NCBI GenBank assembly: GCA_018402305.1
Contig: JAGYJE010000007.1
Span: forward strand, 1 to 64,000
Reading direction: 5' to 3'
Origin: Puniceicoccaceae bacterium
GTDB lineage: Bacteria; Verrucomicrobiota; Verrucomicrobiia; Opitutales; Coraliomargaritaceae
DNA length: 64,000 nucleotides
Shown here: positions 7,415 through 21,364 of the stretch, piece after piece
How the letters are laid out: each line of letters begins with the position of its first letter
Numbering within the stretch: position 1 is the stretch's first letter
Notes under the pieces: model-generated
What the model was told of the DNA's origin: nothing
Database searches by the model: none
What the model saw: the letters and a program-made list of their open reading frames with translations, nothing else
Made by a program: the position numbers and the translations under genes

Positions 7415-9598
7415 TCAAATAGTCGCTTCGGGCTTCGGAGCGATGAGATAAACCGGGGCGTTGCCAACTTCGTCGAATTGAATGGGCTCGCCGGTGGAAT
7501 CGAGGGCTTTTTGAAAGTGAATTGGCCAAGGGCCGCTAAAGGTGCGTCCGTTGCACCATAGCAGGACGACCTCGTCGTTTGTGCGTTCAAAGCGCAGGGC
7601 GTAGACAGCGTCCGGGGTGTCCATTTTCTCGACAAAAGTGGCGGGGCCCAGCTCACGGAGGAAGGTCTGGAGCATTTGAAAGCCCACGCGCTTGCGCCAG
7701 CCGCCCTCGGCCCGTTCGTCGACGAGGCCGAAGCCGTGGGCGACGAGACGCCACCAATAGACCCGCTCAACCAAACCGGAGCAAATGGTGAGAGCGAGGT
7801 AGCGGATCATGTAGTGGCCATACTGCGCTTCCGAGACGTGGACGCGGCTGCCTCGGGCACCTGGCGGCAGGTAGGTGGCCGCCACGGGCGACCACTCGGC
7901 GGTATCGATCAGCGGCCAGTTGACCTCGGAAAGGATGAGCCGGTCCTCGCAGCGCTTGGAGTGCCGGGCGATCGCCTTCATCAAGGCGGCTTTTTCGATC
8001 GTCCCGAAACGGCCTTGTTTGTTTTCGGGGGCTCCCCGCCGGTCGACGTAGAGGAGGTGCGAGAGGGCGCCGAAGTGGACCCCTCCAGGCAAATGGTCGA
8101 GGGCGGCGACGGAATGAAAGGGCTCAAAATCGATACAGGCGGGACCCCAGATCTGGAGGGCTGGGAATTTCTTCCGCAAGTCCACCAGCGGGTGCATGAG
8201 GGCTGCATATTCCCTCAAATTGTGGACGCCCCATTTCACTCGATTCATGGCGTGTCCGACTTTGACCGCCTCAACTTTACCGTCAATTCGCTCGAAAAGA
8301 TACTCAAGGAAGTGCTTCCAGGATTCCGGCTCCAGAGTGGCGCGGCGATCCTGAAAGATGCCAACGACGATTGAGTGCCCGGATTGATGCAGGCGTTCGA
8401 TGCAGTGGATGGATCGGTCCCATTGGGCTTGTCCCTGATGGTGCCCTACGCGCAGTAGGACCGGAACGCGATGCAGTTCCTCCAGGAGTGCGAGCTGAGG
8501 CTCGAAATCGAGGTCGGCGGGTTCAAGCGACATGCCGATGCGGTCGGCCATGGCCACCGGGGTTTTGAAAGCGGTCAAGCACAGTTCCCGGTAGTTTTTC
8601 CAAGTCACGGGCAGTGCTTTCAGGTTGGCGAACACGATCTTTGCGTGGTTTCGCCACGAGTGGCAGTTTTTACGGTCCTTCTTGTTAAGGGTGATGGCGG
8701 CTTGGGCGGAGCGATCATCCCAAATCCAGACGTCTTCCATGCGCAGGGATAGCTTACCCCGATTTTTACTGGCTTTGCGGAAGCTTTTTATGGGATGGCG
8801 TAATGAACGGCTCTTTTGCCAGAGGTAAAACAGCCGCCGTCGCTGTGCAACCTGTTTACGAAAGTCGCTGGGTGCCTTAGAGGCCCAATAAATTCGAAAA
8901 AGGACTTCCAGGAATGCGGAGGGCATTTGCAGTCTAGAAAAATCGAGGGCCCGTTGTTTTGTGGTTAGCTTTTTTCGGATTTGGCCGCGGTTTAGATCCA
9001 GAAAAATGACGCGATCTGACCCGGTTGTAGGGTCGGGCAGGAGCTCGATGTTCTGATTCCCGAGGTCTCTGTGGTAGAACCCCGAATCGTGCATGCGGCG
9101 CATGGCAACGCCGACTTGTTTCAGGAGATCCACGAGAACCGAGCAGGGGCCGTTGCCCGCATAGATTTGTAAAAGCCCGGTTTTCAGGCTTTTCAGTCCT
9201 CTGAGGTAACCGGAGAGGTAGTAGGCCTCCATCAGACGTCCATTTTCCCAGCGCTCCAGATAGGCGAGGGGTGGTGGCGTGGCCACGCCGTGTGCTTCGA
9301 GGTGTGCGGCGGCTTGAAAGGAACGCGCCGCCTTGCTGCCGCGTTTCCGGTCGTAGCGGTCCTTCCAGCCCTGCTGGCGGCCAAAGAATTTGACGGCTAC
9401 TGATTGGACGGTGTCGCCGATATCAAAATCCCGCACGACCACTTGGTGGCGACCTCGCGCCAGCACACCGGTTTGGGCCGTCTCGATCTCTTTGCGCAAG
9501 CCGGACAGGCATCCATCTCGGAGGGAGGCCAGCCAATCAGCCCGCCCCATCCCGACAAAGCCTTCTTTGTTGAATGCTGCAAATTTTGTATCGTCCAC
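7415..9598 (-). CDS. Fusion: WaaP/InaA-type LPS kinase plus glycoside-hydrolase-like barrel
   Basis: Residues 1-300 form a WaaP/InaA/Kdo-kinase domain: VAVK (Lys70), HRDLGNQN (176-183, catalytic Asp178 and Asn183) and DLN (201-203, in place of DFG). Residues 330-700 resemble a TIM-barrel glycoside hydrolase: strand-like segments such as RVPVLLRVGHHQG, IVVGIFQDRR, VEAVKVGHAMNRVKWG and RLILSEVNWP. Glu558 in LSEVNW sits where the nucleophile of clan A enzymes lies. At the expected acid/base position (KVGHAMNR) I see no Glu, so hydrolase activity is doubtful. The kinase half probably phosphorylates an LPS-core sugar; the barrel may bind or trim glycan. The LPS genes around it support an envelope role. 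The start ATG at 9598 is plausible but the first 20 residues are not diagnostic. Confidence 0.72.
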   Translation of the reverse strand: MDDTKFAAFNKEGFVGMGRADWLASLRDGCLSGLRKEIETAQTGVLARGRHQVVVRDFDIGDTVQSVAVKFFGRQQGWKDRYDRKRGSKAARSFQAAAHLEAHGVATPPPLAYLERWENGRLMEAYYLSGYLRGLKSLKTGLLQIYAGNGPCSVLVDLLKQVGVAMRRMHDSGFYHRDLGNQNIELLPDPTTGSDRVIFLDLNRGQIRKKLTTKQRALDFSRLQMPSAFLEVLFRIYWASKAPSDFRKQVAQRRRLFYLWQKSRSLRHPIKSFRKASKNRGKLSLRMEDVWIWDDRSAQAAITLNKKDRKNCHSWRNHAKIVFANLKALPVTWKNYRELCLTAFKTPVAMADRIGMSLEPADLDFEPQLALLEELHRVPVLLRVGHHQGQAQWDRSIHCIERLHQSGHSIVVGIFQDRRATLEPESWKHFLEYLFERIDGKVEAVKVGHAMNRVKWGVHNLREYAALMHPLVDLRKKFPALQIWGPACIDFEPFHSVAALDHLPGGVHFGALSHLLYVDRRGAPENKQGRFGTIEKAALMKAIARHSKRCEDRLILSEVNWPLIDTAEWSPVAATYLPPGARGSRVHVSEAQYGHYMIRYLALTICSGLVERVYWWRLVAHGFGLVDERAEGGWRKRVGFQMLQTFLRELGPATFVEKMDTPDAVYALRFERTNDEVVLLWCNGRTFSGPWPIHFQKALDSTGEPIQFDEVGNAPVYLIAPKPEATI

Positions 9599-9815: not shown

Positions 9816-10898
9816 TTAATGGATGCTTTTCCGTCCTTCCTGGAGGTTGCGTAGGTAGTTCGTCAGCGTATGGGCTTCATTTTCGAGGGAGTATTGCGCC
9901 TCGGCGATCTGTCGCCCATTTTGGCCCATCGCTTCAAGTTTTGGGACATCGCTGAGAAGTGTCCTGAGTTTCTCACGAGTGGCCGCGACATCCCCGCAGG
10001 GGACGAGGTAACCGGTCTTCCCCGGGCGGACGATGTCCTGCCAGGCGCCGGCCTCAGAGGCGAGCACGGCGGTGCCGCTGGCCATGGCCTCCAGCACGGT
10101 GAGCCCGAAGCCCTCGTTCCGGCTCAACGCGGTGACGAGGTGCATGGCCCGAAAAAGTTCGGGTAGGGCGGAAAAGGGTTGTTTGCCAAGAAAGACGAAG
10201 CGGTTTTCGAACCCGGCGGCAGCGATCTTTGCTCTGAGGGCGCGCTCGAATTTCTGCTCTCGGGGCGTGGTTTCGCCGCAGATCACGATGGTGACGTCGG
10301 GAAATTCAGCGAGCAGGGGCAGGGCGGCGTCAACTAGGACATCGACGCCTTTCTGATGCCGCACGCGCCCGAAAATACCGACACCATACTTCCCGGGGAA
10401 GCCGAGTTTTTGCCAAAGTGCGGCGCGGTCTTTAGCCGGGTGGTAGCGCTCGAGGTCGACCCCGTGGGGGATTATGACGTCCGCTCCGCCCTGAATATAG
10501 CTGGCCGCTGCCGTGCAGGTCGAAATGACGGCATCGGCCTCGCGGATGAGCCAGCGGGTGATCCAGGTGTGCTGGCGTTGTGCGGTCGAGGTGAAGGCGA
10601 TTTTCAGGGGACTGGCGGCCAGTTTCTTGAGCGCGAGGGCCTGGAGCATTTCGTTATTGCGCCGGGCGTGAAAGATTCGGGCTTTGCCATCGGGAAGGGG
10701 CGCGCGGCAGAGCCGCAGGGCCTCCCGAAAGGTGAGCGTAGGCACATCCTCCGGCAGGTGGTGGCGACCGAGCACGGCGACCGGAATCAAGCGTTTCTGA
10801 TGCTGCAGGACCTGTAGCATCGTTGAGGTGACTCCGGAAAACTTCGGGTTGGAATTACCCAAGATGAGCTCGGTCTCTGGTGAGGGGGATCGGGGCAT
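9816..10898 (-). CDS. Glycosyltransferase family 4
   Basis: From the ATG at 10898 this is a 360-residue GT-B enzyme. The donor-binding half contains YGVGIFGRVRHQKGVDVL and the E-x7-E motif region EGFGLTVLEAMASGTAVLASEAGAWQDIV, typical of GT4. A longer frame upstream exists, but its extra 54 residues overlap the neighbouring gene and read as low-complexity Arg/Ser sequence, so I reject it. The start lies 1 bp after the stop of the upstream glycosyltransferase, indicating one operon. The acceptor is unknown; LPS core or O-chain is inferred from context. Confidence 0.85.
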   Translation of the reverse strand: MPRSPSPETELILGNSNPKFSGVTSTMLQVLQHQKRLIPVAVLGRHHLPEDVPTLTFREALRLCRAPLPDGKARIFHARRNNEMLQALALKKLAASPLKIAFTSTAQRQHTWITRWLIREADAVISTCTAAASYIQGGADVIIPHGVDLERYHPAKDRAALWQKLGFPGKYGVGIFGRVRHQKGVDVLVDAALPLLAEFPDVTIVICGETTPREQKFERALRAKIAAAGFENRFVFLGKQPFSALPELFRAMHLVTALSRNEGFGLTVLEAMASGTAVLASEAGAWQDIVRPGKTGYLVPCGDVAATREKLRTLLSDVPKLEAMGQNGRQIAEAQYSLENEAHTLTNYLRNLQEGRKSIH

Positions 10899-10899
10899 T

Positions 10900-11841
10900 T
10901 TAATCGAGCAAGGATTGAATGACTTCCGGGAACGTGTTGAGGAAAGTCTTGTGATTCGTTTCAAACCAAGCCCGCGCATTGCCGCCAAAGCGTTGCTTTT
11001 CCGCTCCGCTGAGTTGGAAGGTGCGGTTGAGCGCTTCGGCCAGCGCTTCCGGGTCGACATGGAAATTCGTGCCGAGGTGACGGGGTTCCTGGTGGTGGAA
11101 GGGCACGCGAATGCCGGTTTCCGAGCGAATGATTTCGTTCATGGGCTGGGCATCGGTCGTGATGACGACGGCGCGGCAGCTCATCGCCTCGACGATGTAG
11201 TGCCCCCAACCCTCCGAGCGTGAGGTGCAGAGGTGGATACCATGCCGGTTCAACTCTCTAACCAGGTCTTCCGAGGAAAGGTAGCCAGAGAGGAGCCGCA
11301 CATTATCCGGAACGGCGGCGGGTGCGTTTTCGCTGCACTGGATAAGCGTCAACTCCGGCCAGTCGGGGTGGGCCCGCCAGAGATCGAGCAGGGTTTCGGT
11401 GCCCTTCAGCGTGCTGCGGCCTGCCAGGTGGAAACAGCGGCCGTAGTCCATTTCGACCCCGGGTAGCGAACGGTCGGTGGAGCTGAACCCGATATGTCGG
11501 GCCGGAGCGTGCTTTGAGAAAATACCTAAGGCGTGCTGCGTCTTGCAGAGGATGGTGTCGATCTTGCGCAGATGCTTTACATGGCGGAGGGGAAAGCGCT
11601 CCTGATTCGGAATGAGGAAATTTTTACGGGCGAGGGGCAACCAGCGCGGGAAGACACGTTCCAGGAAAATATTGGCATCAAAGCGGGGCTTTCGCGGGAG
11701 CAGAGCCGACCAGGGGGGGATGCCGCGGCAGTGACTGACCGTCACCTCGAACCCGGCACCCTTGAGCGCGCCGTGGACGAGATCGACGTCCTGATCGAGC
11801 CCGACACCGTTGGTGCGGGCGACTATGTTGATATGCGGCAT
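10900..11841 (-). CDS. Glycosyltransferase, GT-B fold
   Basis: The 313-residue protein has a short N-terminal domain (MPHINIVARTNGVGLDQDVD) and a GT1/GT4-like C-terminal domain with a HLAGRSTLKGTETLLDLWR segment and the SEGWGHYIVEAMSCRAVVI motif that carries donor-phosphate contacts. It is shorter than most GT4 enzymes (about 360-400). It is followed immediately by another glycosyltransferase on the same strand. Donor and acceptor cannot be read from sequence. Confidence 0.8.
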   Translation of the reverse strand: MPHINIVARTNGVGLDQDVDLVHGALKGAGFEVTVSHCRGIPPWSALLPRKPRFDANIFLERVFPRWLPLARKNFLIPNQERFPLRHVKHLRKIDTILCKTQHALGIFSKHAPARHIGFSSTDRSLPGVEMDYGRCFHLAGRSTLKGTETLLDLWRAHPDWPELTLIQCSENAPAAVPDNVRLLSGYLSSEDLVRELNRHGIHLCTSRSEGWGHYIVEAMSCRAVVITTDAQPMNEIIRSETGIRVPFHHQEPRHLGTNFHVDPEALAEALNRTFQLSGAEKQRFGGNARAWFETNHKTFLNTFPEVIQSLLD

Positions 11842-13221: not shown

Positions 13222-13971
13222 CTAAAGGCGCTTGTAGTTAAAGAGCTCAAAATCCTCTGCATAGTAGTCACCAACAATAGCCAGTAGTTCACGGTCGTAA
13301 TATTCCATAAAGGGACGATGTTGGGTGCCATTTTTGTGTGTAAGTGCCGCAGAAACTCCAAGTTTGCTCATAATTTCGTGGAATGATTGATCGAGATGCT
13401 CATAACGTCCGATCAAGTCGGGGATAAGCGCCCCACCATCGTCTTTAAGCCAAGCGGCTTGGGGCTGGCACTGACTCAAGCCGTTGACATTAAACAGGCC
13501 GATGTCGTCGATCGCACCTTCCTCAAGCAACTGACAGAAGAGCCTGAAAGAGGTTTTTGGATGTAAGTCTTTTTGTTTGATAAAGTAGTGGTAGAGTGAA
13601 ACCAAGCGATCGTAGGGGTTTCGAACAATAGCGAACTTGAGGGCATTTTGGTGGAAGGCTTGGCTGACAAAACCTGTGCTGAGTAGTGATGGGTAGTGGC
13701 AATGTGAAAAAGTTACCAGGCCGGACTGCGGGAAACGGTAGTGTATTTGCTCGAGACGGCGAAGTTTCGGGCAGCCGTGCTGGCAAAGCGCGAAGTAAAA
13801 GCTACTTCCACCCGTCCGGGGAACCCAAAGGAAGACCGCATCGTGGTTATTTCTCTGGACGAAACGTTGGTAGTGCCTGGCGAACGAAGTCAGTCGGTAA
13901 CCGGCTGGGCGCAGTTTTTCGAAGCGCCCGCGACGTTGGCTCTCGGGGGGCAGGTAGTCGTCAAAATTCAT
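13222..13971 (-). CDS. Sulfotransferase family 2 protein
   Basis: The protein has the two PAPS-binding motifs of carbohydrate sulfotransferases: FLWVPRTGGSSFYFAL (5'-phosphosulfate loop) and FAIVRNPYDRLVSLYHYF (3'-phosphate motif with Arg and Ser). It is about 250 residues, with no membrane anchor, so a cytoplasmic enzyme acting on a nucleotide- or lipid-linked sugar is likely. I prefer the Met at 13971 (MNFDDYLPPE); an upstream ATG at 14001 adds 10 residues and overlaps the GT90 gene by 41 bp. Its position beside a GT90 gene in the LPS-like locus suggests sulfation of the envelope glycan. Confidence 0.8.
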   Translation of the reverse strand: MNFDDYLPPESQRRGRFEKLRPAGYRLTSFARHYQRFVQRNNHDAVFLWVPRTGGSSFYFALCQHGCPKLRRLEQIHYRFPQSGLVTFSHCHYPSLLSTGFVSQAFHQNALKFAIVRNPYDRLVSLYHYFIKQKDLHPKTSFRLFCQLLEEGAIDDIGLFNVNGLSQCQPQAAWLKDDGGALIPDLIGRYEHLDQSFHEIMSKLGVSAALTHKNGTQHRPFMEYYDRELLAIVGDYYAEDFELFNYKRL

Positions 13972-14953
13972 GTTTTCGATGGGAGAGGCAGATTGATTCA
14001 TCCAACTGGCCGCTGAGTTCTAGATATTTCTTCACCACGAGCAGACCGATCAGATGCTCTTTTTTCTGATCAGAGAAATCCGCATAGTAATCCTGAAAGT
14101 TTTCGATGATAGTTTCGGCTTCATCGGGGTTATCGAGATAGTAATCAATCTTTTCGGTTAAATCAGCGTAATCGTCGCGCAACGCAACGTAGTGCTTACC
14201 TGCTTCTAAAGTCCCCTCCATAAACCAGGATTCAAATTTGGGTTTTGTCATGAAACAAAGCGAGTTGGATTGGGCGATCCACTTCAAATTGGTGGCTACG
14301 TCATTTCCCTCAATGGAGAGGATGAATTTATGTTGCAGTTGTTCGGCAATTGAAAGATAGGGCTTGCGCCAAGGGCGCAGTTCCGGAACCGGACGCTCAT
14401 TCGTCAGCCCAATGTCGAGTCGAGGATTTCCGAAGTGTCGTTTGAAAAGCACTTTGCGGTGGTCCCGATTGACTCTGCCGCGCCAGACAAGGCTGTCTTT
14501 TTTTTGGCGGTAGGGGCAGCTATCCGTGATCGGGCGGAAGTGACGGATGCTATTCAGGCGCAGCAGGACGCTATTTTCGTTGGGTATCCTGATCGGTCGG
14601 GTTTTGACAAAACCCGGCACAGCGGTGACGTCGGTTTTGTCGCCAAATCGTGAGAAGGTCTTCACCTGCGATGGGAAGTGACGAAGTAACCTGCGAAAAT
14701 CGAAGAAATAGGTCGTTTTTGCTTTCGGTATATAAGCGATGGACAAGGCTTCTTCAGGGGCAGGAAATTTGCTGTTCAGTTTGTTGTAGTAGTTGACCCT
14801 TCGATTGATGGCTTCGGGTGGATAACGATCCACAAGTTGAAGCCAAGCTCGGAGACGCCTACGATAGAAGGCATTGGGGACGAAAAAGTGCTCGGCAAAA
14901 CCGCGGCTATAAAAAGCAATTTTCCGGGATTGCTGTTGCCGTAGTTGAATCAT
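13961..14953 (-). CDS. Glycosyltransferase family 90 (CAP10/LpsA-like)
   Basis: The 330-residue protein carries the GT90 signature LVWRGRVNRDHRK, the RPWRKPYLSIAEQLQHKFIL segment and SIEGNDVATNLKWIAQSNSL, followed by KPKFESWFMEG. These match bacterial LPS glycosyltransferases related to fungal CAP10 and animal POGLUT, usually glucosyl- or xylosyltransferases. The end overlaps the sulfotransferase start by 11 bp, so the two are probably co-translated. Confidence 0.85.
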   Translation of the reverse strand: MIQLRQQQSRKIAFYSRGFAEHFFVPNAFYRRRLRAWLQLVDRYPPEAINRRVNYYNKLNSKFPAPEEALSIAYIPKAKTTYFFDFRRLLRHFPSQVKTFSRFGDKTDVTAVPGFVKTRPIRIPNENSVLLRLNSIRHFRPITDSCPYRQKKDSLVWRGRVNRDHRKVLFKRHFGNPRLDIGLTNERPVPELRPWRKPYLSIAEQLQHKFILSIEGNDVATNLKWIAQSNSLCFMTKPKFESWFMEGTLEAGKHYVALRDDYADLTEKIDYYLDNPDEAETIIENFQDYYADFSDQKKEHLIGLLVVKKYLELSGQLDESICLSHRKHEF

Positions 14954-15042
14954 TTCGACGTATCCTGGTGGTTGGTCATGTAAGTCGGGAATTACGAGAC
15001 GATTTTCGAAGTAATGCTAAAGAGTTTTAATACTCAGTTTGG

Positions 15043-15690
15043 TTAAGCTTTCAGCTGTTCCGCTATTTTTTTCATTAAGGTATCCGTATTTTGGTTTCCG
15101 TTTGCAACCGACTTTCTGAACCTCGCAATGTCTTTATGCTGACGCCGACGGGCTTTTCTGACGTTATCCAGGTCGATCAGCTGAACGGTTGATTCATTCT
15201 CAACAATCAAATTTTGTGTGTGTAGGTCACCGTGGCTCAATCCAAGCGAATGGAGCGATTTGATGGTATCGATGGCTGCTTGAGCTGTTTCATCCAAGAG
15301 TTTTCCAGGCTTTTCCGAATAGAGGTAATCATGCAGCTTAAGACCAGTCGCATGCTCCATCAGAAGATACGAGCGTGCGGACCAGATGCTCCATCGGGCG
15401 ACGATTAGAAAGTGAGTCGGACAAGGGACACCATTAGACCGGAGGTAGTGGGCAACGCGAAGCGATCGGTGGGAGCGCGAACTGCGAGTGAGAATACGCA
15501 AAGCGAAGAGGGGCCCGTGGGGATGGTAGCATTTAATGACAAAGCTTTTGCCTCCAATCCGGCAGCTCCGAACGTCTTGGTCATTTGCCTGGCGGATTTT
15601 TTCTCCGTTTTCGTGAAGCGCTCGAACATCTCCATAGCTGAGCTTGCAGAGGTGCTGAGGTATCTCGGGAGCGGTCGAACGAAGAATCAT
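15043..15690 (-). CDS. WaaP/InaA-type LPS core kinase
   Basis: The 215-residue small kinase has a VIKCY lysine motif (about residue 53), the LLMEHATGLKL hinge, catalytic HGDLHTQN (H-x-D-x4-N) and LIDLDNVRKARRR, the DFG-equivalent. This is the Kdo kinase/WaaP/RfaY group that phosphorylates LPS-core sugars using ATP on the cytoplasmic face. All catalytic residues are present. It lies 22 bp after a WaaG-like transferase, matching waa-type operons. Confidence 0.82.
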   Translation of the reverse strand: MILRSTAPEIPQHLCKLSYGDVRALHENGEKIRQANDQDVRSCRIGGKSFVIKCYHPHGPLFALRILTRSSRSHRSLRVAHYLRSNGVPCPTHFLIVARWSIWSARSYLLMEHATGLKLHDYLYSEKPGKLLDETAQAAIDTIKSLHSLGLSHGDLHTQNLIVENESTVQLIDLDNVRKARRRQHKDIARFRKSVANGNQNTDTLMKKIAEQLKA

Positions 15691-15712
15691 TTAAGCGGTT
15701 AAACGGAAGGGT

Positions 15713-16909
15713 TTAGGAATTAGGCGCGTTTTCTCTGCGGTCAAGGAAGTCATTTACGGCGGCCTCGATTTGTTGAATATGACGTTCCATCGAGAATTCC
15801 TGTCCTGTCGAAATCGCATGGTTGCGGATCTCTTGGAAGTTTGGACACGCTGCCAAATCTTGAATGCGATCCCTGATTAGATCGTAATCATGAGCGGTCG
15901 GGATGACGTATCCGTTTCGCCCATCTTTTATAAGTTCGGCACTGCCATTGGTTGCCGTTGTGATCACCGCGACTCCACAGGCGAGCGCCTCGCAGACAAC
16001 ATTCGCGGCGGCATCGTATTTTGAGGGAAAGACCAGGCAATCTGAAGCGCCATAATAATGCTCAATTTTCGGCTGAAAACCGGCGTAAACGACACGGTCC
16101 AGCAGGTCGAGATTCTCGAGTGACTTGCGGAGTTTGGAAGCATCGGTCCGGCCGACGACCAGAAGTTTAATGCGCTTGTTGTGAATTCCGGCAAAGGACT
16201 CCAGCAGCTCCTGCAAGCCCTTGCGACCGCCTCCGCCTGCGGTGAAAATGCAGACGAAGTCGTCAGTCGAAAATCCATGTTGGCGGCGGATAGTATCGCG
16301 CATCTTGCTTGCAACATTCGGATTAAAGCGGCTCAGATCGATCCCGTTGCGGACTACCCGCAAGCGCTCCTCCGGGACTTGATACCGATTTTGAATGTCT
16401 TGCTTCACCATGCTCGAATTGGTGATCAGCAACTGCGGCGTATTTTTCTTGAATAAATTTTCTTGTAAGCGTCTCGCTGTCAGATGCTTCAGACGGAATC
16501 GGGCGCTGGGTCGCAGGCAATTATCCATGTAAGTTGCGTGCACGCCGCCGCCGGCACGGTAGACATCGCCAAAGCTCACGTTTCCGGTGGTGAAGACAAA
16601 ATCAAAATTTACCGGGTGCTTTCGGATCAGTTTTTGTGCTCGGTAATTGAACCAGACCAAACGGGCCGAAGGGGTCAACTTGAGCGGCCTGACTTTGATC
16701 TTATTGAGGTTAGCATGCTCAACAGATCGACTGCCAAAGCTTTCCGCGAAGCACCATACCTCGCAGCCACCCGCCAACAGACCGCGGAGGAGCCGGTTAA
16801 TGTAATTCTCGTGCCCGCCACGGTCAGGATCGAGAGATTTGACCACTAACGCAATCTTCCAGAGGAGCGTTTCCGAGTGCACCCTATTTTCCTGAAAGGA
16901 CTTCCTCAT
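15713..16909 (-). CDS. WaaG-like glycosyltransferase family 4
   Basis: In this 398-residue GT4 enzyme the N-terminus WKIALVVKSLDPDRGGHENY and the internal DVYRAGGGVHATYM are typical of the LPS-core glucosyltransferase WaaG/RfaG. Later it has VVRNGIDLSRFNP, FTAGGGGRKGLQELL and SKYDAAANVVCEALACGVAV with the conserved Glu pair. WaaG adds the first outer-core hexose to heptose. The first 18 residues look like an extension; no other start codon suits. It overlaps the preceding gene by 26 bp. Confidence 0.85.
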   Translation of the reverse strand: MRKSFQENRVHSETLLWKIALVVKSLDPDRGGHENYINRLLRGLLAGGCEVWCFAESFGSRSVEHANLNKIKVRPLKLTPSARLVWFNYRAQKLIRKHPVNFDFVFTTGNVSFGDVYRAGGGVHATYMDNCLRPSARFRLKHLTARRLQENLFKKNTPQLLITNSSMVKQDIQNRYQVPEERLRVVRNGIDLSRFNPNVASKMRDTIRRQHGFSTDDFVCIFTAGGGGRKGLQELLESFAGIHNKRIKLLVVGRTDASKLRKSLENLDLLDRVVYAGFQPKIEHYYGASDCLVFPSKYDAAANVVCEALACGVAVITTATNGSAELIKDGRNGYVIPTAHDYDLIRDRIQDLAACPNFQEIRNHAISTGQEFSMERHIQQIEAAVNDFLDRRENAPNS

Positions 16910-17981
16910 AAAGACTTAGGTAGCTCAAAGCCATGGAATCAGTGTTAAATTGCAACGAATAATTGTATGCGTTTTCTGTAATTGCAGACTTCAGGTTCGG
17001 GTCTGTAATGAGTGCACGTAGGTGGTCAGCCAGTTCGGCGGCGTTTCCAATGCTGGAACTTAGACCCGTTTTCCGATGCTGAACCAGTTCCGGGATTCCC
17101 CCTGCTTGGGTGGCGACGACTGGAACTTTGGCGGCAAAGGAATCAATGACGCTCGTCCCGAGTCCTTCTGTCTTTGAGGTAATCAGGAAAATGTCCAGCG
17201 ATGGTAGCACCTCTTCAATGTTATCCAGGAAACCGGTAAAGATGAAATAATCGCTCAGGTTAAGCGCCTTCACTCGGGCCTTGAGATCGGATTCCAATTC
17301 GCCTGAGCCGATGATGAAGAAACGAACAAATCGGTCAAATTTTTGCACATAATGGGCTGCGGTTTCCATAAAAGTGGCATAGTCCTTGTGAGGTGCGAGT
17401 GCACTGGTGTTTCCAATAAGGGTGAGGTTTTTTTTCAGTTGATACTTCGTCCGAAGGAAATTGTTCCCGATGTGGGGCTCGAACCTCTTATGGTTGATCG
17501 CACTGTATATAGTGCTGCAGAGGTCTGGTCGGCCAGTTCCGCTAGTGACTATTTCTCTGATGGCATTGGAGACACAAGCGATCTTACGAATGCCGGGAAA
17601 GGTGTATTTATATCGAGAGAAAAAATTGCGTTTGAGTTCAAAATCAACCCTTCGGGTTAGAACGACCGGCGTTCTATTGCCGAGAAGATATGCCAGAAAA
17701 GCTGTGCTGTGCGAGTGGGAACTGTGCGCATGCACAATATCAACCGACAGTGTTTCGCAAAGTTTTTTCAACGCCAATCCCGAGCGAATGTCTCCCGAGT
17801 GCCGCATAGGCAAGGGGTGAAAGGCCCAGTCCCGAGCGATGCAGAATTTTTCAAATTCAGATCCTGGTTTGCAGGCGACCAGCGGCTGGATTCCCTTGGT
17901 TTCCAGCTTCTCAACAAGGTAAGCGATTTGCTGCTCGCCGCCCCGCCAAGTCGATTCGGAGCTAAGATGCAGAATCCTCAT
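16884..17981 (-). CDS. Glycosyltransferase family 4
   Basis: The 365-residue GT-B enzyme has the N-terminal loop SSESTWRGGEQQIAYL, the HAHSSHSHSTAFLAYLLG segment and the C-terminal TSKTEGLGTSVIDSFAAKVPVVAT motif. It resembles GT4 enzymes of LPS-core clusters. The overlaps with both neighbours (20 and 26 bp) show a compact operon. The product linkage is unknown. Confidence 0.85.
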   Translation of the reverse strand: MRILHLSSESTWRGGEQQIAYLVEKLETKGIQPLVACKPGSEFEKFCIARDWAFHPLPMRHSGDIRSGLALKKLCETLSVDIVHAHSSHSHSTAFLAYLLGNRTPVVLTRRVDFELKRNFFSRYKYTFPGIRKIACVSNAIREIVTSGTGRPDLCSTIYSAINHKRFEPHIGNNFLRTKYQLKKNLTLIGNTSALAPHKDYATFMETAAHYVQKFDRFVRFFIIGSGELESDLKARVKALNLSDYFIFTGFLDNIEEVLPSLDIFLITSKTEGLGTSVIDSFAAKVPVVATQAGGIPELVQHRKTGLSSSIGNAAELADHLRALITDPNLKSAITENAYNYSLQFNTDSMALSYLSLYEEVLSGK

Positions 17982-18741
17982 GTCCGGACGTTAACTGCTT
18001 ATATTTGGCATACTTCAAGAACTTTGAGTGGGCCGAGACGACTGCGATCGTCAAACCGCGAAATCCGTCCAAAAAGCCGAGTTTTAAGAAATAGTGTTTT
18101 AAAAAGACGAACGGAGGATTGAAAAGCAATCGAAGTGTTGTGAAGCGTTTCGTTCTGTTTCTGAGCAGCTCGTGCGCGGCGATCGTTGAGAATTTATTGC
18201 TCTGCGCGACATGGGCCTCCAGGTCGGGGATCGTGTAATGGAGAATGTCCCCACGGAGCCGATGGGTTTTGGCGCCCTTTTCGAGTTGAACGGTGTCGTG
18301 TGGGTTGTTCCCCCCCCAGCTTCCATACTGCTTGTTCCAGAATCTTACTTTGCGGTCTGGATACCACCCGCTGTGTCGGATCCAGCGGCCACAATAGTTA
18401 TTAAGTCTGGGCATTGAATAGGCCTCGATACCAGGCGGGGCTTTTTCCTTTATTCCGTTCATTTCATGTATTAGTTCGTGGCTTAAGCACTCGTCGCCGT
18501 CGAGCGAAAGCACCCAGTCGTATCTCGCCTCATTCAAGCCGTAATGCTTCTGCTCAATATAGCCTTTGAACGCATTCTGAACGAAACGGACCTTTTCGTA
18601 AGAGCGGCAAATCGACTCGGTCTGATCGGTCGAAAAGCTGTCAACCACCACGATTTCGTCGGCGACTTTGTCGAGCGAATCCAGACACTTTCGGATATGC
18701 GTCTCTTCGTTGAAAGTAATGACGGTTGCGCTGATTTTCAT
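17962..18741 (-). CDS. Glycosyltransferase family 2 (WaaE/KdtX-like)
   Basis: In this 259-residue GT-A enzyme MKISATVITFNEETHIRKCL, EIVVVDSFSTDQT and VLSLDGDEC (the D-x-D-like metal motif) are followed by PRLNNYCGRWIRHSGWYPDRK and LRGDILHYT. This is the family of beta-1,4-glucosyltransferases WaaE/KdtX that act on the inner LPS core. It is the first gene of the run 18741 to 13222, so the promoter should lie just upstream of 18741. Confidence 0.87.
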   Translation of the reverse strand: MKISATVITFNEETHIRKCLDSLDKVADEIVVVDSFSTDQTESICRSYEKVRFVQNAFKGYIEQKHYGLNEARYDWVLSLDGDECLSHELIHEMNGIKEKAPPGIEAYSMPRLNNYCGRWIRHSGWYPDRKVRFWNKQYGSWGGNNPHDTVQLEKGAKTHRLRGDILHYTIPDLEAHVAQSNKFSTIAAHELLRNRTKRFTTLRLLFNPPFVFLKHYFLKLGFLDGFRGLTIAVVSAHSKFLKYAKYKQLTSGHEDSAS

Positions 18742-18875
18742 TGTTTCAATGTTTCAAAGTCGAGTGGGAACCGCTCTTCAAAAGAGCGCATAATTGGACG
18801 TTTTGAGGGAATCGCCCGAAAAAAGGGCTTTTTTCTGTGTGGAAATTTGGGATAATTTGTGAAGTTTGAGATGCA

Positions 18876-19245
18876 ATGGAAAGGACAGCAAGTAACCATC
18901 GAATCAAATTCGTTAAATGGGCATGTTTCTTCTCGAGGCAAAAGAATTTTTTTACTAGTTATCCGATAAGCGGGCGGACTTGGGTGCGTTTTTTAGTAAA
19001 CGCGGACAAAACGGAGATTTTTGGTATTGAGGTTCTGAATGTCTTTAAGGCAGAGCGAAAGTTACTATTGAAACACCACGTGGAGTGGACGATCCTCGCT
19101 GGCCGCCAGAAAGACGCCTACTACGCGATGCGCCCACAAAATATCGGACTTCTACGAAAGACCTCCTGCGCCTTTATGATGCTAAATTTCCACGCTACGC
19201 TCGCATCAGCCTGGTTCCAGGTAACTCAGCGACTCGGTGTCGCCA
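18876..19245 (+). pseudogene. Possible sulfotransferase remnant
   Basis: One frame contains FFTSYPISGRTWVRFLV, matching the 5'-PAPS loop (S-Y-P-x-S-G-x-T-W-x-R) of sulfotransferases. After about 60 residues similarity fades, and a shifted frame (STKDLLRLYDAKFPRY) continues. No 3'-phosphate motif is found. It is therefore a decayed fragment. It does not explain the whole 18742-19298 gap, in which nothing else is supported. Confidence 0.35.
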
Positions 19246-19298
19246 TAGTCTAATTTTCGATGTCAACATCCGTTTCTTTGAGGGTGCTGTGATTTTGT

Positions 19299-19333
19299 TT
19301 GACAATATATACTGTTGGTATATCCGTTTAAGA
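19299..19333 (+). promoter_or_regulatory. vapBC promoter with palindromic operator
   Basis: TTGACA at 19299-19304 is followed by the perfect inverted repeat ATATAC-TGTTG-GTATAT (19307-19323). The vapB ATG at 19334 begins 29 bp after the TTGACA, so the expected transcript start coincides with the ATG. The operator overlaps the spacer and -10, consistent with autorepression by an AbrB-type VapB. Confidence 0.5.
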
Positions 19334-19567
19334 ATGGAGGCAGCGAGATTGTTTCAAAATGGGCGGAGTCAGGCGGTTCGCTCGCCCAAAGCCTACCGGT
19401 TTTTCGGCGAAAAGGTGTTCATTAAACGTTTCGGAAAAGGAATCGTTTTGCTTCCGGATGAGGATTTATGGGAGAGCCTGATCGAGAGCACGGCAAAGTT
19501 TTCCACTGATTTCATGGAAACGCGTGATCAAGGGGGCGAGCAAGAGCGGGAGGCCTGCTTCGAGTGA
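19334..19567 (+). CDS. vapB: VapB-type antitoxin, AbrB/SpoVT fold
   Basis: The 77-residue protein reads ARLFQNGRSQAVRSPKAYRF, FGEKVFIKRFGKGIVLLP and WESLIESTAKFSTDFME, the swapped-hairpin (AbrB/MazE-like) VapB that pairs with MTYLLDTNICI-type VapC. It is full length. A longer frame reaches further upstream but lacks homology there and would span the operator. The antitoxin is intact although its toxin partner downstream is broken. Confidence 0.8.
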   Translation: MEAARLFQNGRSQAVRSPKAYRFFGEKVFIKRFGKGIVLLPDEDLWESLIESTAKFSTDFMETRDQGGEQEREACFE

Positions 19568-19849
19568 CGTATCTATTGGATACAGAAATCTGCATCTTTA
19601 TGATACGAAGGCAACCGGAGTCTGTTTTCGCTAAATTGCGGGAGCAAGTGCCTGGCGACGTGGGGGTTTCTGCAGTCACCCATTCGGAACTTTGCCATGG
19701 TGCGCTCAAAAGCCGGGAACCAGAGACGAATCTTGCCGCCTTGGCGGAGTTCGTGTTTTGTGGTGACGAATAATACCAAGGAATTCGAGCGGGTGGATGG
19801 CTTGCGCGTTGAAAACTGGCTTTTGGCTGACTGGCTTTTGGCTGACTGA
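19564..19849 (+). pseudogene. vapC: VapC toxin with internal deletion and frameshift
   Basis: A GTG start inside the vapB stop codon gives MTYLLDTEICIFMIRRQPES and VGVSAVTHSELCHGALKS, the N-terminal half of a PIN toxin. The canonical DTNICI is DTEICI here. After residue 65 the frame ends. A shifted frame carries the true C-terminus VVTNNTKEFERVDGLRVENW. About 45 central residues, including the third acidic residue, are missing. A 15-bp tandem duplication (TGGCTTTTGGCTGAC twice) follows the C-terminus. Confidence 0.75.
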
Positions 19850-19903
19850 GTATTTGAGCGGCGGGCAGGACTTTGCTGGTGTCCGCGTCGTTTATCCGTT
19901 TTA

Positions 19904-21364
19904 TTGAACGAAAAATTAAAGATTTTGCTTTGGTTTCTGAAACTTTCTGCCCGCTTTTTGGCTTGGTTACCGCCGAGCCTGGCTGCGATGCTGTGTCGTT
20001 TTATTGGGTTGTTGGTTCGTGTTTTTTTGGCGACCCGGAGTCGGAGCACGCTGAACAGCCTTTCGCATGCATTTCCGGATGAAACGGAGGCTTGGCGGCA
20101 GGGGGTCTTCCGGGAGTCCTGCACCCGGTTGGCGGAGATGGGGCTTTTCCGGCTGGCCTCGGCCTACTTCAGCGCGGAGCGGCTGGAGCAGACGCTTGAA
20201 CTCACGCCGGAAGCTGCTCGGATTATCGAAGATTATCGGGAGGGCGGGCGGTTCCATGGGCGGCCGGTCGTGATTATGCTGCCGCACATGACCCTGTCGG
20301 AAGCGGCGACCATGCTGCCGGGGCGGGTATCGGGCTTAAAGCCGGTGCATGTCATTTTTCGTCCGCTCAACCAGCCAGCGATCAACCGCTGGGTGACGCG
20401 CGAGCGGGAACGGTTTGGTGCCAAAATGATTTCGCGGCGGGCTGGGCACAACGATGCCATGGCAGCCCTGCGGCAGGGAGAAATCGTTGCTGTGCTCTTC
20501 GATCAGGATGCGGCCAGTCGTGGGTCGGTGATTACCTTCATGGACCGTATGGTTTCGGCGACGGATCTGCCTGCCCTAATGGCGCATCGTTTCAGCGCGG
20601 ATGTCTTTCTCATGCTCCCCGAGCGACAGAGCTTTTGGAGGGCTCAGTTGACCTTAAGGCCCATCCCGCTGGGCGAGGAGCCGGTGGACGTGACAATCCG
20701 GGCCCACGATGCACTGGAGGCGTATCTGCGGCGCGATGCGGAAACGGCGGCGGATTGGCTCTGGCTGCATCAGCGCTGGAACTTCGCCTGCAAGCCCCGC
20801 AAACGCTTCCGCCTGTCCGAGAAGCGGAATCAAATCGCACGCGCGAATGCCTTGCACGGCCGCGACGCGTTGCCGAGAAAAGTGCGCTTCTGGGTCCGAC
20901 TGCCGGATAGCCGGGCTGAGGTGGTTGATGCCTTGCCCGTCCTGCGGGCAATCCGAGCCGCGCGACCGGACTTCGAATTCACTTTGATCGGGGAGGGTGG
21001 GCTACAGTCATTGGTTGAGGAGTCAGAGCTGGCGGATCGATTCGTCCCACTACCAAAGTCGGGACTTTCCCGATTGCTTCAATTTTATCAAATGCGCTCG
21101 CAGTATCCCGACACCTATTGGGTGCTCGCCGCGGACTTTGGCGCGGACTTGGAGGCCTTTCTCACCCGTTGTCCCCAGCGCTTTGGAGCGGAGCGGGCAG
21201 GGCGGAGGCGGCGTTTGTTGACGACGCCCTATCGAGCGGAAGCGGGCGCCGAAAACGCTCCGCCCGGACTCTCCGGCTTATGGCAGTCCATGGCGTATTT
21301 CTATGGCTTACCGGAGCCGGAGGAATCGCCACCGGATCGGGAAAAACCCTCGGCGGATGCGTGA
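19904..21364 (+). CDS. Fusion: LpxL-like acyltransferase plus GT9 heptosyltransferase-like domain
   Basis: In this 486-residue protein residues 1-305 are an LpxL/HtrB lysophospholipid acyltransferase: an N-terminal hydrophobic segment (ILLWFLKLSARFLAWLPPSL), the H-x4-E catalytic motif (His128-MTLS-Glu133), FDQDAASRGSVITFMDR and WLWLHQRWNF. Residues 320-450 resemble the N-terminal half of ADP-heptose:LPS heptosyltransferases (VRLPDSRAEVVDALPVLRAI, FTLIGEGG, FVPLPKSG). The C-terminal donor-binding half of GT9 is missing or replaced, so transferase activity is uncertain. The protein probably acylates a lipid A precursor at the inner membrane. ATG at 19904 chosen by homology. Confidence 0.78.
   Translation: MNEKLKILLWFLKLSARFLAWLPPSLAAMLCRFIGLLVRVFLATRSRSTLNSLSHAFPDETEAWRQGVFRESCTRLAEMGLFRLASAYFSAERLEQTLELTPEAARIIEDYREGGRFHGRPVVIMLPHMTLSEAATMLPGRVSGLKPVHVIFRPLNQPAINRWVTRERERFGAKMISRRAGHNDAMAALRQGEIVAVLFDQDAASRGSVITFMDRMVSATDLPALMAHRFSADVFLMLPERQSFWRAQLTLRPIPLGEEPVDVTIRAHDALEAYLRRDAETAADWLWLHQRWNFACKPRKRFRLSEKRNQIARANALHGRDALPRKVRFWVRLPDSRAEVVDALPVLRAIRAARPDFEFTLIGEGGLQSLVEESELADRFVPLPKSGLSRLLQFYQMRSQYPDTYWVLAADFGADLEAFLTRCPQRFGAERAGRRRRLLTTPYRAEAGAENAPPGLSGLWQSMAYFYGLPEPEESPPDREKPSADA

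Follow-up and report, generated by a model that had tools for sequence, protein, structure and literature searches.

Fusion of a WaaP-type kinase to a GH39-related barrel without the acid/base glutamate in an LPS-type locus

Two described groups of proteins stand closest to the gene analyzed here. On one side are the WaaP/KdkA/InaA kinases (PF06293); in WaaP of P. aeruginosa, according to an excerpt of the published account, a different fold takes the place of the subdomain through which protein kinases are regulated and recognize their substrates (PMC6147952). On the other side is glycoside hydrolase family GH39 of clan GH-A, with beta-xylosidases, PslG and CmGH1, and an excerpt of the report on PslG gives its active pair as acid-base Glu165 and nucleophile Glu276 (PMC11912335). 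The window, by which we mean the full stretch of 64,000 nucleotides, encodes at positions 9598-7415 of the minus strand a single chain (the window protein) in which both groups are recognizable. Like the WaaP/KdkA/InaA kinases, its kinase passes the family cut-off, keeps the Lys, HRD and DFG-type Asp and lies in an LPS-type locus; unlike them, it is joined to a GH39-like domain of about 400 amino acids. That domain resembles GH39 in a profile match along the whole barrel, in an Arg after the beta2-equivalent strand and in E558, which falls on the nucleophile, and the S-x-H-x-Y of GH39 at beta6 corresponds to S-x-x-x-Y, with His in most relatives and Leu in the window. It differs from GH39 in having Ala, Thr or Gly at the acid/base NE site, in its new NRxKWG, DFE and DRRGAPE motifs, in lying below Pfam detection and in belonging, in the window, to a protein with no strong hydrophobic segment; the missing acid/base Glu also sets it apart from PslG-type exopolysaccharide glycosidases. 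The same phylum holds four proteins (L158, L178, L180 and L181) in which a kinase of this superfamily is likewise fused to a carbohydrate-active domain, but there the partner is N-terminal to the kinase and is a GT4-like glycosyltransferase, not a barrel, a label that comes from reading the N-terminal sequence and not from a domain scan. Searches of the open-licence literature found no paper on a kinase-barrel fusion and no description of either the domain arrangement, which we regard as new, or the GH39-related domain family. The barrel would define a domain family that has no Pfam or NCBIfam entry and occurs in the envelope loci of a phylum that has received little study.

The fusion ORF is real at these coordinates and on this strand, and its frame is intact, with no internal stop, in the window's genome (contig 67 of 76). 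The nearest named relatives of the window protein share 69% (L052) and 55% (L053) identity with near end-to-end coverage and lie on contigs titled Verrucomicrobia and Verrucomicrobiaceae. The features of the protein and of its surroundings are collected in the table. The linker pattern W[ILV]WDxxSxQ was found in 50 of the 52 kinase-barrel loci (window not counted), and even the shorter pattern W[ILV]WD was found in none of the 8 proteins with the reversed, barrel-kinase order. The C-terminal tail (about residues 661-727) varies among relatives. Hydrophobicity over 19 residues reached a maximum of only 1.09 in the window protein, and values above 1.6 occurred in 11 of 66 relatives.

Table. Positions in the window of the fusion gene, its domains, key residues and neighboring genes.
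Feature	Position	Strand	Basis or conservation
Whole gene, kinase-barrel fusion (727 aa, GTG start)	7415..9598	-	ORF list and search of own genome
Kdo/WaaP-type kinase domain, ~residues 40-245	8864..9481	-	Pfam PF06293 and family kinase profile
Lys70, ATP-binding Lys	9389..9391	-	Lys in 49/53 kinase-barrel proteins
HRD motif H176-R177-D178	9065..9073	-	D178 is Asp in 49/53 kinase-barrel proteins
Asp201, DFG-equivalent Asp	8996..8998	-	Asp in 50/53 kinase-barrel proteins
Linker motif WIWDDRSAQ (291-299), pattern W[ILV]WDxxSxQ	8702..8728	-	Conserved in relatives
GH39-like barrel, ~residues 346-660	7619..8563	-	Profile-profile comparison with GH39 set
Ala450, aligned with GH39 acid/base Glu	8249..8251	-	Profile alignments
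Motif N452-R453-V-K455-W456-G457, after beta4-equivalent strand	8228..8245	-	N452 51/53 and R453 50/53 kinase-barrel; both 8/8 barrel-kinase
Motif D490-F491-E492, after beta5-equivalent strand	8123..8131	-	D490 51/53 kinase-barrel, 8/8 barrel-kinase; E492 47/53 and 8/8
Motif D519-R520-R-G-A-P524-E525, after beta6-equivalent strand	8024..8044	-	R520 51/53 kinase-barrel, 8/8 barrel-kinase; E525 52/53 and 8/8
Glu558, aligned with GH39 nucleophile (after beta7)	7925..7927	-	Glu in 52/53 kinase-barrel proteins, 2/2 split barrels
C-terminal tail, ~residues 661-727, possible small beta domain	7418..7618	-	Strands in weak models
Two GT4-type genes upstream of fusion gene	9816..11841	-	Pfam
LPS-type context: sulfotransferase, GT90, second Kdo/WaaY-type kinase, two GT4, GT2, lipid A acyltransferase	13222..21364	.	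Pfam scans
Lipid A acyltransferase	19904-21364	+	Pfam; opposite strand to rest of LPS-type genes

A reading made from the sequence alone, before any search (the sequence-only reading), had described the gene as a WaaP-type kinase with an intact K-HRD-D set, fused to a glycosidase-like barrel and situated in an LPS locus, and each of these elements was borne out. Residues 80-225 matched PF06293 with an E value of 2.7e-13 and 50.3 bits against a curated cut-off of 21.3, and K70, H176-R177-D178 and D201 are all present. The HRD Asp was likewise found at the D178 column in 7 of 7 testable barrel-kinase proteins and in both split kinases, and nearly all family members retain the full set of kinase catalytic residues. 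The kinase half is assigned to PF06293 because its score exceeds the cut-off and its catalytic residues (Lys, the Asp of HRD and the DFG-equivalent Asp) are in place, and the LPS-type locus suggests that it probably phosphorylates a sugar of LPS.

A search for the C-terminal half covered 387 genomes of the window's phylum, and all matching places (the window plus 69 loci) were read. Matches occurred at 70 places in 67 of the 387 genomes. Fifty-three of these, the window included, were kinase-barrel fusions and 8 were fusions in the reversed order (L036, L038, L040-L044 and L046, with the kinase of L043 cut by a contig end); in 2 (L032 and L033) kinase and barrel were encoded by neighboring genes overlapping by about 8 bases, and 5 were barrels with no visible kinase (L034 and L151, both cut by contig ends, and L035, L045 and L152). 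The remaining matches, L150 and L153, held no barrel according to the family model. The kinase is thus fused to 61 of 68 barrels and adjoins 2 more, so that 63 of 68 are linked to it in one of three arrangements, which argues that the fusion is not a matter of chance; the possibility raised at the outset that the two halves would never be fused in relatives does not hold. The C-terminal Kdo kinase was also found independently by Pfam in all four reversed proteins scanned (L036, L038, L040 and L046). An assembly accident of this contig was ruled out, since the barrel is fused in 61 of 68 cases and in many genomes, and so was a sugar-binding domain of general use that combines with various partners, since the 70 places show the kinase or, rarely, none. 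Plasmid or viral cargo was likewise rejected for the barrel: tblastn against plasmids matched the kinase region only, and three viral scans found no relative. A scan of genome contigs with the single window protein, which reaches close relatives, returned 2 loci, both Verrucomicrobia according to their titles. The phylum name given to the searched genomes derives from L052 and L053. One genome (G341) holds a kinase-barrel fusion (L006) as well as a barrel of the reversed type (L034), so both types can coexist.

To place the barrel, profiles were compared with hhalign. Fifty barrel rows aligned with 19 GH39 proteins of the phylum at 96.5 to 96.9%, with E values down to 1.7e-10, whereas decoys (reversed and 25 column-shuffled copies) reached at most 0.5%, and comparisons with GH5, WaaP and GT4 sets all stayed below 1%. 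The alignment with GH39 proceeds in barrel order and along the whole barrel. The value depended on the GH39 proteins included, being only 1.6 to 2.8% against the well-scoring subset alone and 87.8 to 92.2% against the divergent subset; smaller alignments gave 47% and 58%, and when the reversed-order barrels were taken by themselves, the value for the GH39 set was 37%. Between the two families proposed for comparison by the sequence-only reading, GH39 is favored and GH5 was rejected as kin, since the full barrel sets gave 0.6 to 0.8% against GH5 versus 96 to 97% against GH39; the reversed-order barrels alone gave 11.6% and 22.9% against GH5. Queried as a family of 27, the C-terminal half had no relative in Pfam, NCBIfam or the PDB sequences, the best E value of the barrel profile against PDB sequences being 1.5, and the GH39 model PF01229 matched none of the 27 barrels at E values up to 1 and nothing anywhere in the window's genome. 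On sequence grounds, the barrel is related to GH39 but is not filed as a GH39 member, since that family's own model is blind to it and the acid/base Glu is absent, and descent from a GH39-type glycosidase is supported.

Structure prediction gave two weak models. AlphaFold2 run on three sequences (window, L052 and L053) gave a mean pLDDT of 37.0 for the full length and 43.3 for the barrel; within this weak barrel model, residues 377-490 form strand-helix-strand repeats with pLDDT mostly between 52 and 84. Foldseek with the weak model as the query returned nothing at an E value of 0.001 or better, and the top four rows were heparanase, at E values of 0.01 to 0.04 and a TM value of 0.19. Heparanase is a clan GH-A enzyme. 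On the strength of the sequence comparisons, a TIM-barrel fold for the C-terminal half is probable.

The catalytic columns of GH39 could be followed through the family. In the trimmed profile alignment, EVWNEPN of GH39 stands opposite KVGHAMN in the window protein. The acid/base Glu thereby falls on A450, and this column is Glu in 0 of 68 barrels, with Ala, Thr, Gly, Cys or Asn instead. An alternative pairing of NE with N452-R453 would put the acid/base residue on R453, a column that is Glu in only 2 of 68. The initial impression that this Glu was not visible and that a nucleophile-like Glu558 was present therefore stands, and the alignment does place Glu558 on the nucleophile of GH39. The 8 barrel-kinase proteins have His (seven) or Asn (one) in the nucleophile column and never Glu. 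Across 59 rows, many other positions are shared by the two orders at a level of 93% or higher, namely, Q416, R418, W427, N452, R453, K455, W456, P486, D490, F491, E492, R520, P524, E525, K536, E590, R599, Y600 and others; the two split barrels deviate at two of them (E525 to Arg and R599 to Ser). Most of the conserved polar residues belong to motifs whose aligned positions are close to the active-site strands of GH39.

Moreover, the barrel is better conserved than the kinase. Among 51 kinase-barrel rows, mean pairwise identity was 44.8% for the barrel versus 39.9% for the kinase, and barrel identity exceeded kinase identity in 1009 of 1275 pairs. Columns conserved at 95% or more numbered 48 in the barrel (excluding one gap-dominated column, otherwise 49 of 339) versus 16 of 222 in the kinase. 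A domain apparently derived from a glycosidase would thus be under stronger constraint than its kinase, despite the loss of the proton donor. This pattern fits a specific recognition pocket, in line with the binding module suggested by the sequence-only reading, and would fit a changed catalytic site equally well.

Trees were used to consider the origin of the pair. With GH39 as the outgroup, all 36 barrels used fell on one side (100/100), and the reversed barrels clustered with three kinase-less barrels (100/100). When the kinases were compared with 16 other Kdo-type kinases, all three arrangements fell on one side with a support of 90/96, a value obtained with two very long branches left out; when these two long-branch kinases were included, the fused kinases did not form a single group. 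A single old kinase-barrel pair whose order changed later is the simpler reading, and two independent fusions would be a less simple one. One cluster of the barrel tree (L037, L039, L035 and L152; 90/93, on a branch that was not starred) has lost the barrel motifs in the rows shown, the motif of L152 being read only within the kinase-less class. No kinase was seen in the stretches read around L035 and L152, and the L039 kinase is without the HRD and the DFG-type Asp, whereas the L037 kinase looks intact. Decay of barrel and kinase in this branch mostly fits functional coupling of the two, with L037 as a partial departure.

We consider it about equally likely to be right or wrong that the protein is a cytosolic LPS-glycan kinase whose GH39-derived barrel, with a rebuilt pocket, recognizes the glycan acceptor and performs no classical hydrolysis. 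A cytosolic location is suggested because the window protein has no long hydrophobic segment, and the two-domain kinase would act on LPS or a related lipid-linked glycan. Judging from its family and its intact catalytic residues, the N-terminal WaaP-fold domain would transfer phosphate from ATP to a sugar hydroxyl. On the alignment, the GH39-type barrel has lost its proton donor in every lineage, and its nucleophile too in one. The mouth of its active site would have been kept but rebuilt with a new set of conserved residues (Q416, R418, N452-R453-K455-W456, D490-F491-E492, R520, E525 and K536). The rebuilt pocket would most likely hold an anionic glycan acceptor and present it to the kinase. 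The order of this old unit has changed and the pair has been split, so that the contact between the domains would be independent of one particular linker. Because both domains travel together across many relatives, the second probably does something specific for the kinase, and an added recognition domain is plausible because WaaP of P. aeruginosa, as far as the excerpt of PMC6147952 goes, has another fold in place of the subdomain that serves this purpose in protein kinases. The absence of the acid/base Glu from all 68 barrels, the loss of the nucleophile in 8 of 8 reversed proteins while other motif residues are kept in both orders, and the relatives' neighbors, which include glycosyltransferases, an O-antigen ligase and an MsbA-type ABC exporter, argue for this reading, as do the linkage of 63 of 68 barrels to a kinase, the kinase tree with the two long branches left out and the decay in the branch of L037, L039, L035 and L152. 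If this is correct, WaaP-type kinases would gain a fused partner for glycan recognition or processing. Against it, the barrel is conserved beyond the need of a mere adaptor, Glu558 is nearly invariant in the kinase-barrel proteins, and the normal-looking kinase of L037 beside a decayed barrel indicates that coupling is not absolute. The unevenness of the GH39 match among subsets and the kinase tree with the long branches included also weigh against it.

The strongest rival, which we rate as somewhat unlikely, is an active barrel with changed chemistry. It would act as a glycosyltransferase, transglycosidase or phosphorylase of GH fold on the same glycan as the kinase, building or remodeling it with Glu558 as the nucleophile and with phosphate or another leaving group for which no proton is required. 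The presence of Glu558 in all but one of 55 kinase-barrel or split barrels (54) and the many charged residues among the conserved columns of a domain better conserved than its kinase would suit such an enzyme, and the fusions of Kdo/WaaP kinases to GT4-like domains indicate that a kinase joined to a sugar-transferring enzyme is a normal design in this phylum. GH39 is also tolerant at these sites: CmGH1, with Gln and Tyr replacing both Glu, is reported active in an excerpt of its description (PMC6933502), so that, to the extent of that excerpt, loss of the acid/base Glu does not prove inactivity. On the other hand, the 8 reversed proteins are without Glu558 and keep the rest of the pocket, which speaks against a single double-displacement mechanism throughout the family. 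It is doubtful, in the more specific form, that the cytosolic, GH39-derived barrel forms rather than breaks glycosidic bonds, as a GH-fold glycosyltransferase or phosphorylase with phosphate-bearing sugars as substrates, in a cycle coupled within one chain to an LPS sugar kinase; if so, the kinase-barrel unit would represent a new type of enzyme for assembling the LPS core in this phylum (probably Verrucomicrobiota). A non-catalytic barrel that serves as a scaffold or stabilizer of the kinase, or as a membrane or partner docking module, is improbable. WaaP of P. aeruginosa, according to the same excerpt (PMC6147952), does require a bound partner, acyl-ACP, for solubility, but stabilizers are not expected to keep polar active-site motifs so strictly, and here the order is reversible and the pair can be split. 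A barrel that works as a glycoside hydrolase in the cytosol, trimming an intermediate of the LPS core with D490, E492 or E525 as the acid/base, is very improbable; GH39 ancestry and three near-universal carboxylates would allow it, but the GH39 acid/base site is without Glu in every barrel, the reversed proteins have no E558, E525 is Arg in the split barrels, and a cytosolic hydrolase working beside glycosyltransferases would undo synthesis.

An LPS-type setting for the fusion gene is supported by its neighbors, as identified by domain scans. In addition to the upstream genes listed in the table, the window has an NAD-dependent epimerase downstream of the fusion gene, and L053 has homologues of the second kinase, of a GT4 and of the epimerase of the window locus. 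That second Kdo/WaaY-type kinase is a separate gene (15043-15690), and the glycan may therefore be a substrate of two or more sugar kinases. The sulfotransferase gene (13222-14001) adjoins the GT90 gene (13961-14953), which suggests a sulfated glycan. The relatives were surveyed through 24 same-strand genes directly upstream, among which there were 8 hits to Rce1/CPBP, 4 to Glycos_transf_1, 3 to Glycos_transf_2, 2 to Sulfatase and 1 to Wzy_C (O-antigen ligase), although two of the listed hits may be one protein. None of these five was among the 25 families listed for a distal control of 40 genes, in which families with a single hit may fall below the 25; MurJ appeared there three times and a heptosyltransferase-type GT9 once. 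The divergent neighbor of the split pair L032 encodes an ABC transporter whose membrane part and ATPase are in one chain, and by this likeness it may be of the MsbA type.

Several smaller features of these loci were also seen. In 8 of 24 fusions, a gene for an Rce1/CPBP-type membrane protease directly upstream overlaps or abuts the fusion gene, for example, at L064:10205-11209 and L065:6394-7539, and at L061:3944-6514 an Rce1/CPBP-type domain and an O-antigen ligase domain are in one chain. At L054:11204-12067, a gene of the phosphorylase superfamily (PNP_UDP_1) lies beside a GT4 gene and the fusion gene. In the window, the two GT4-type ORFs (10900-11841 and 9816-11060) overlap by 161 bases. 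Since a comparable overlapping pair lies upstream in L052, where the first ORF has a GT4-type match, the overlap probably arises because the start assigned to the second gene is false and makes it too long, and not from a frameshift.
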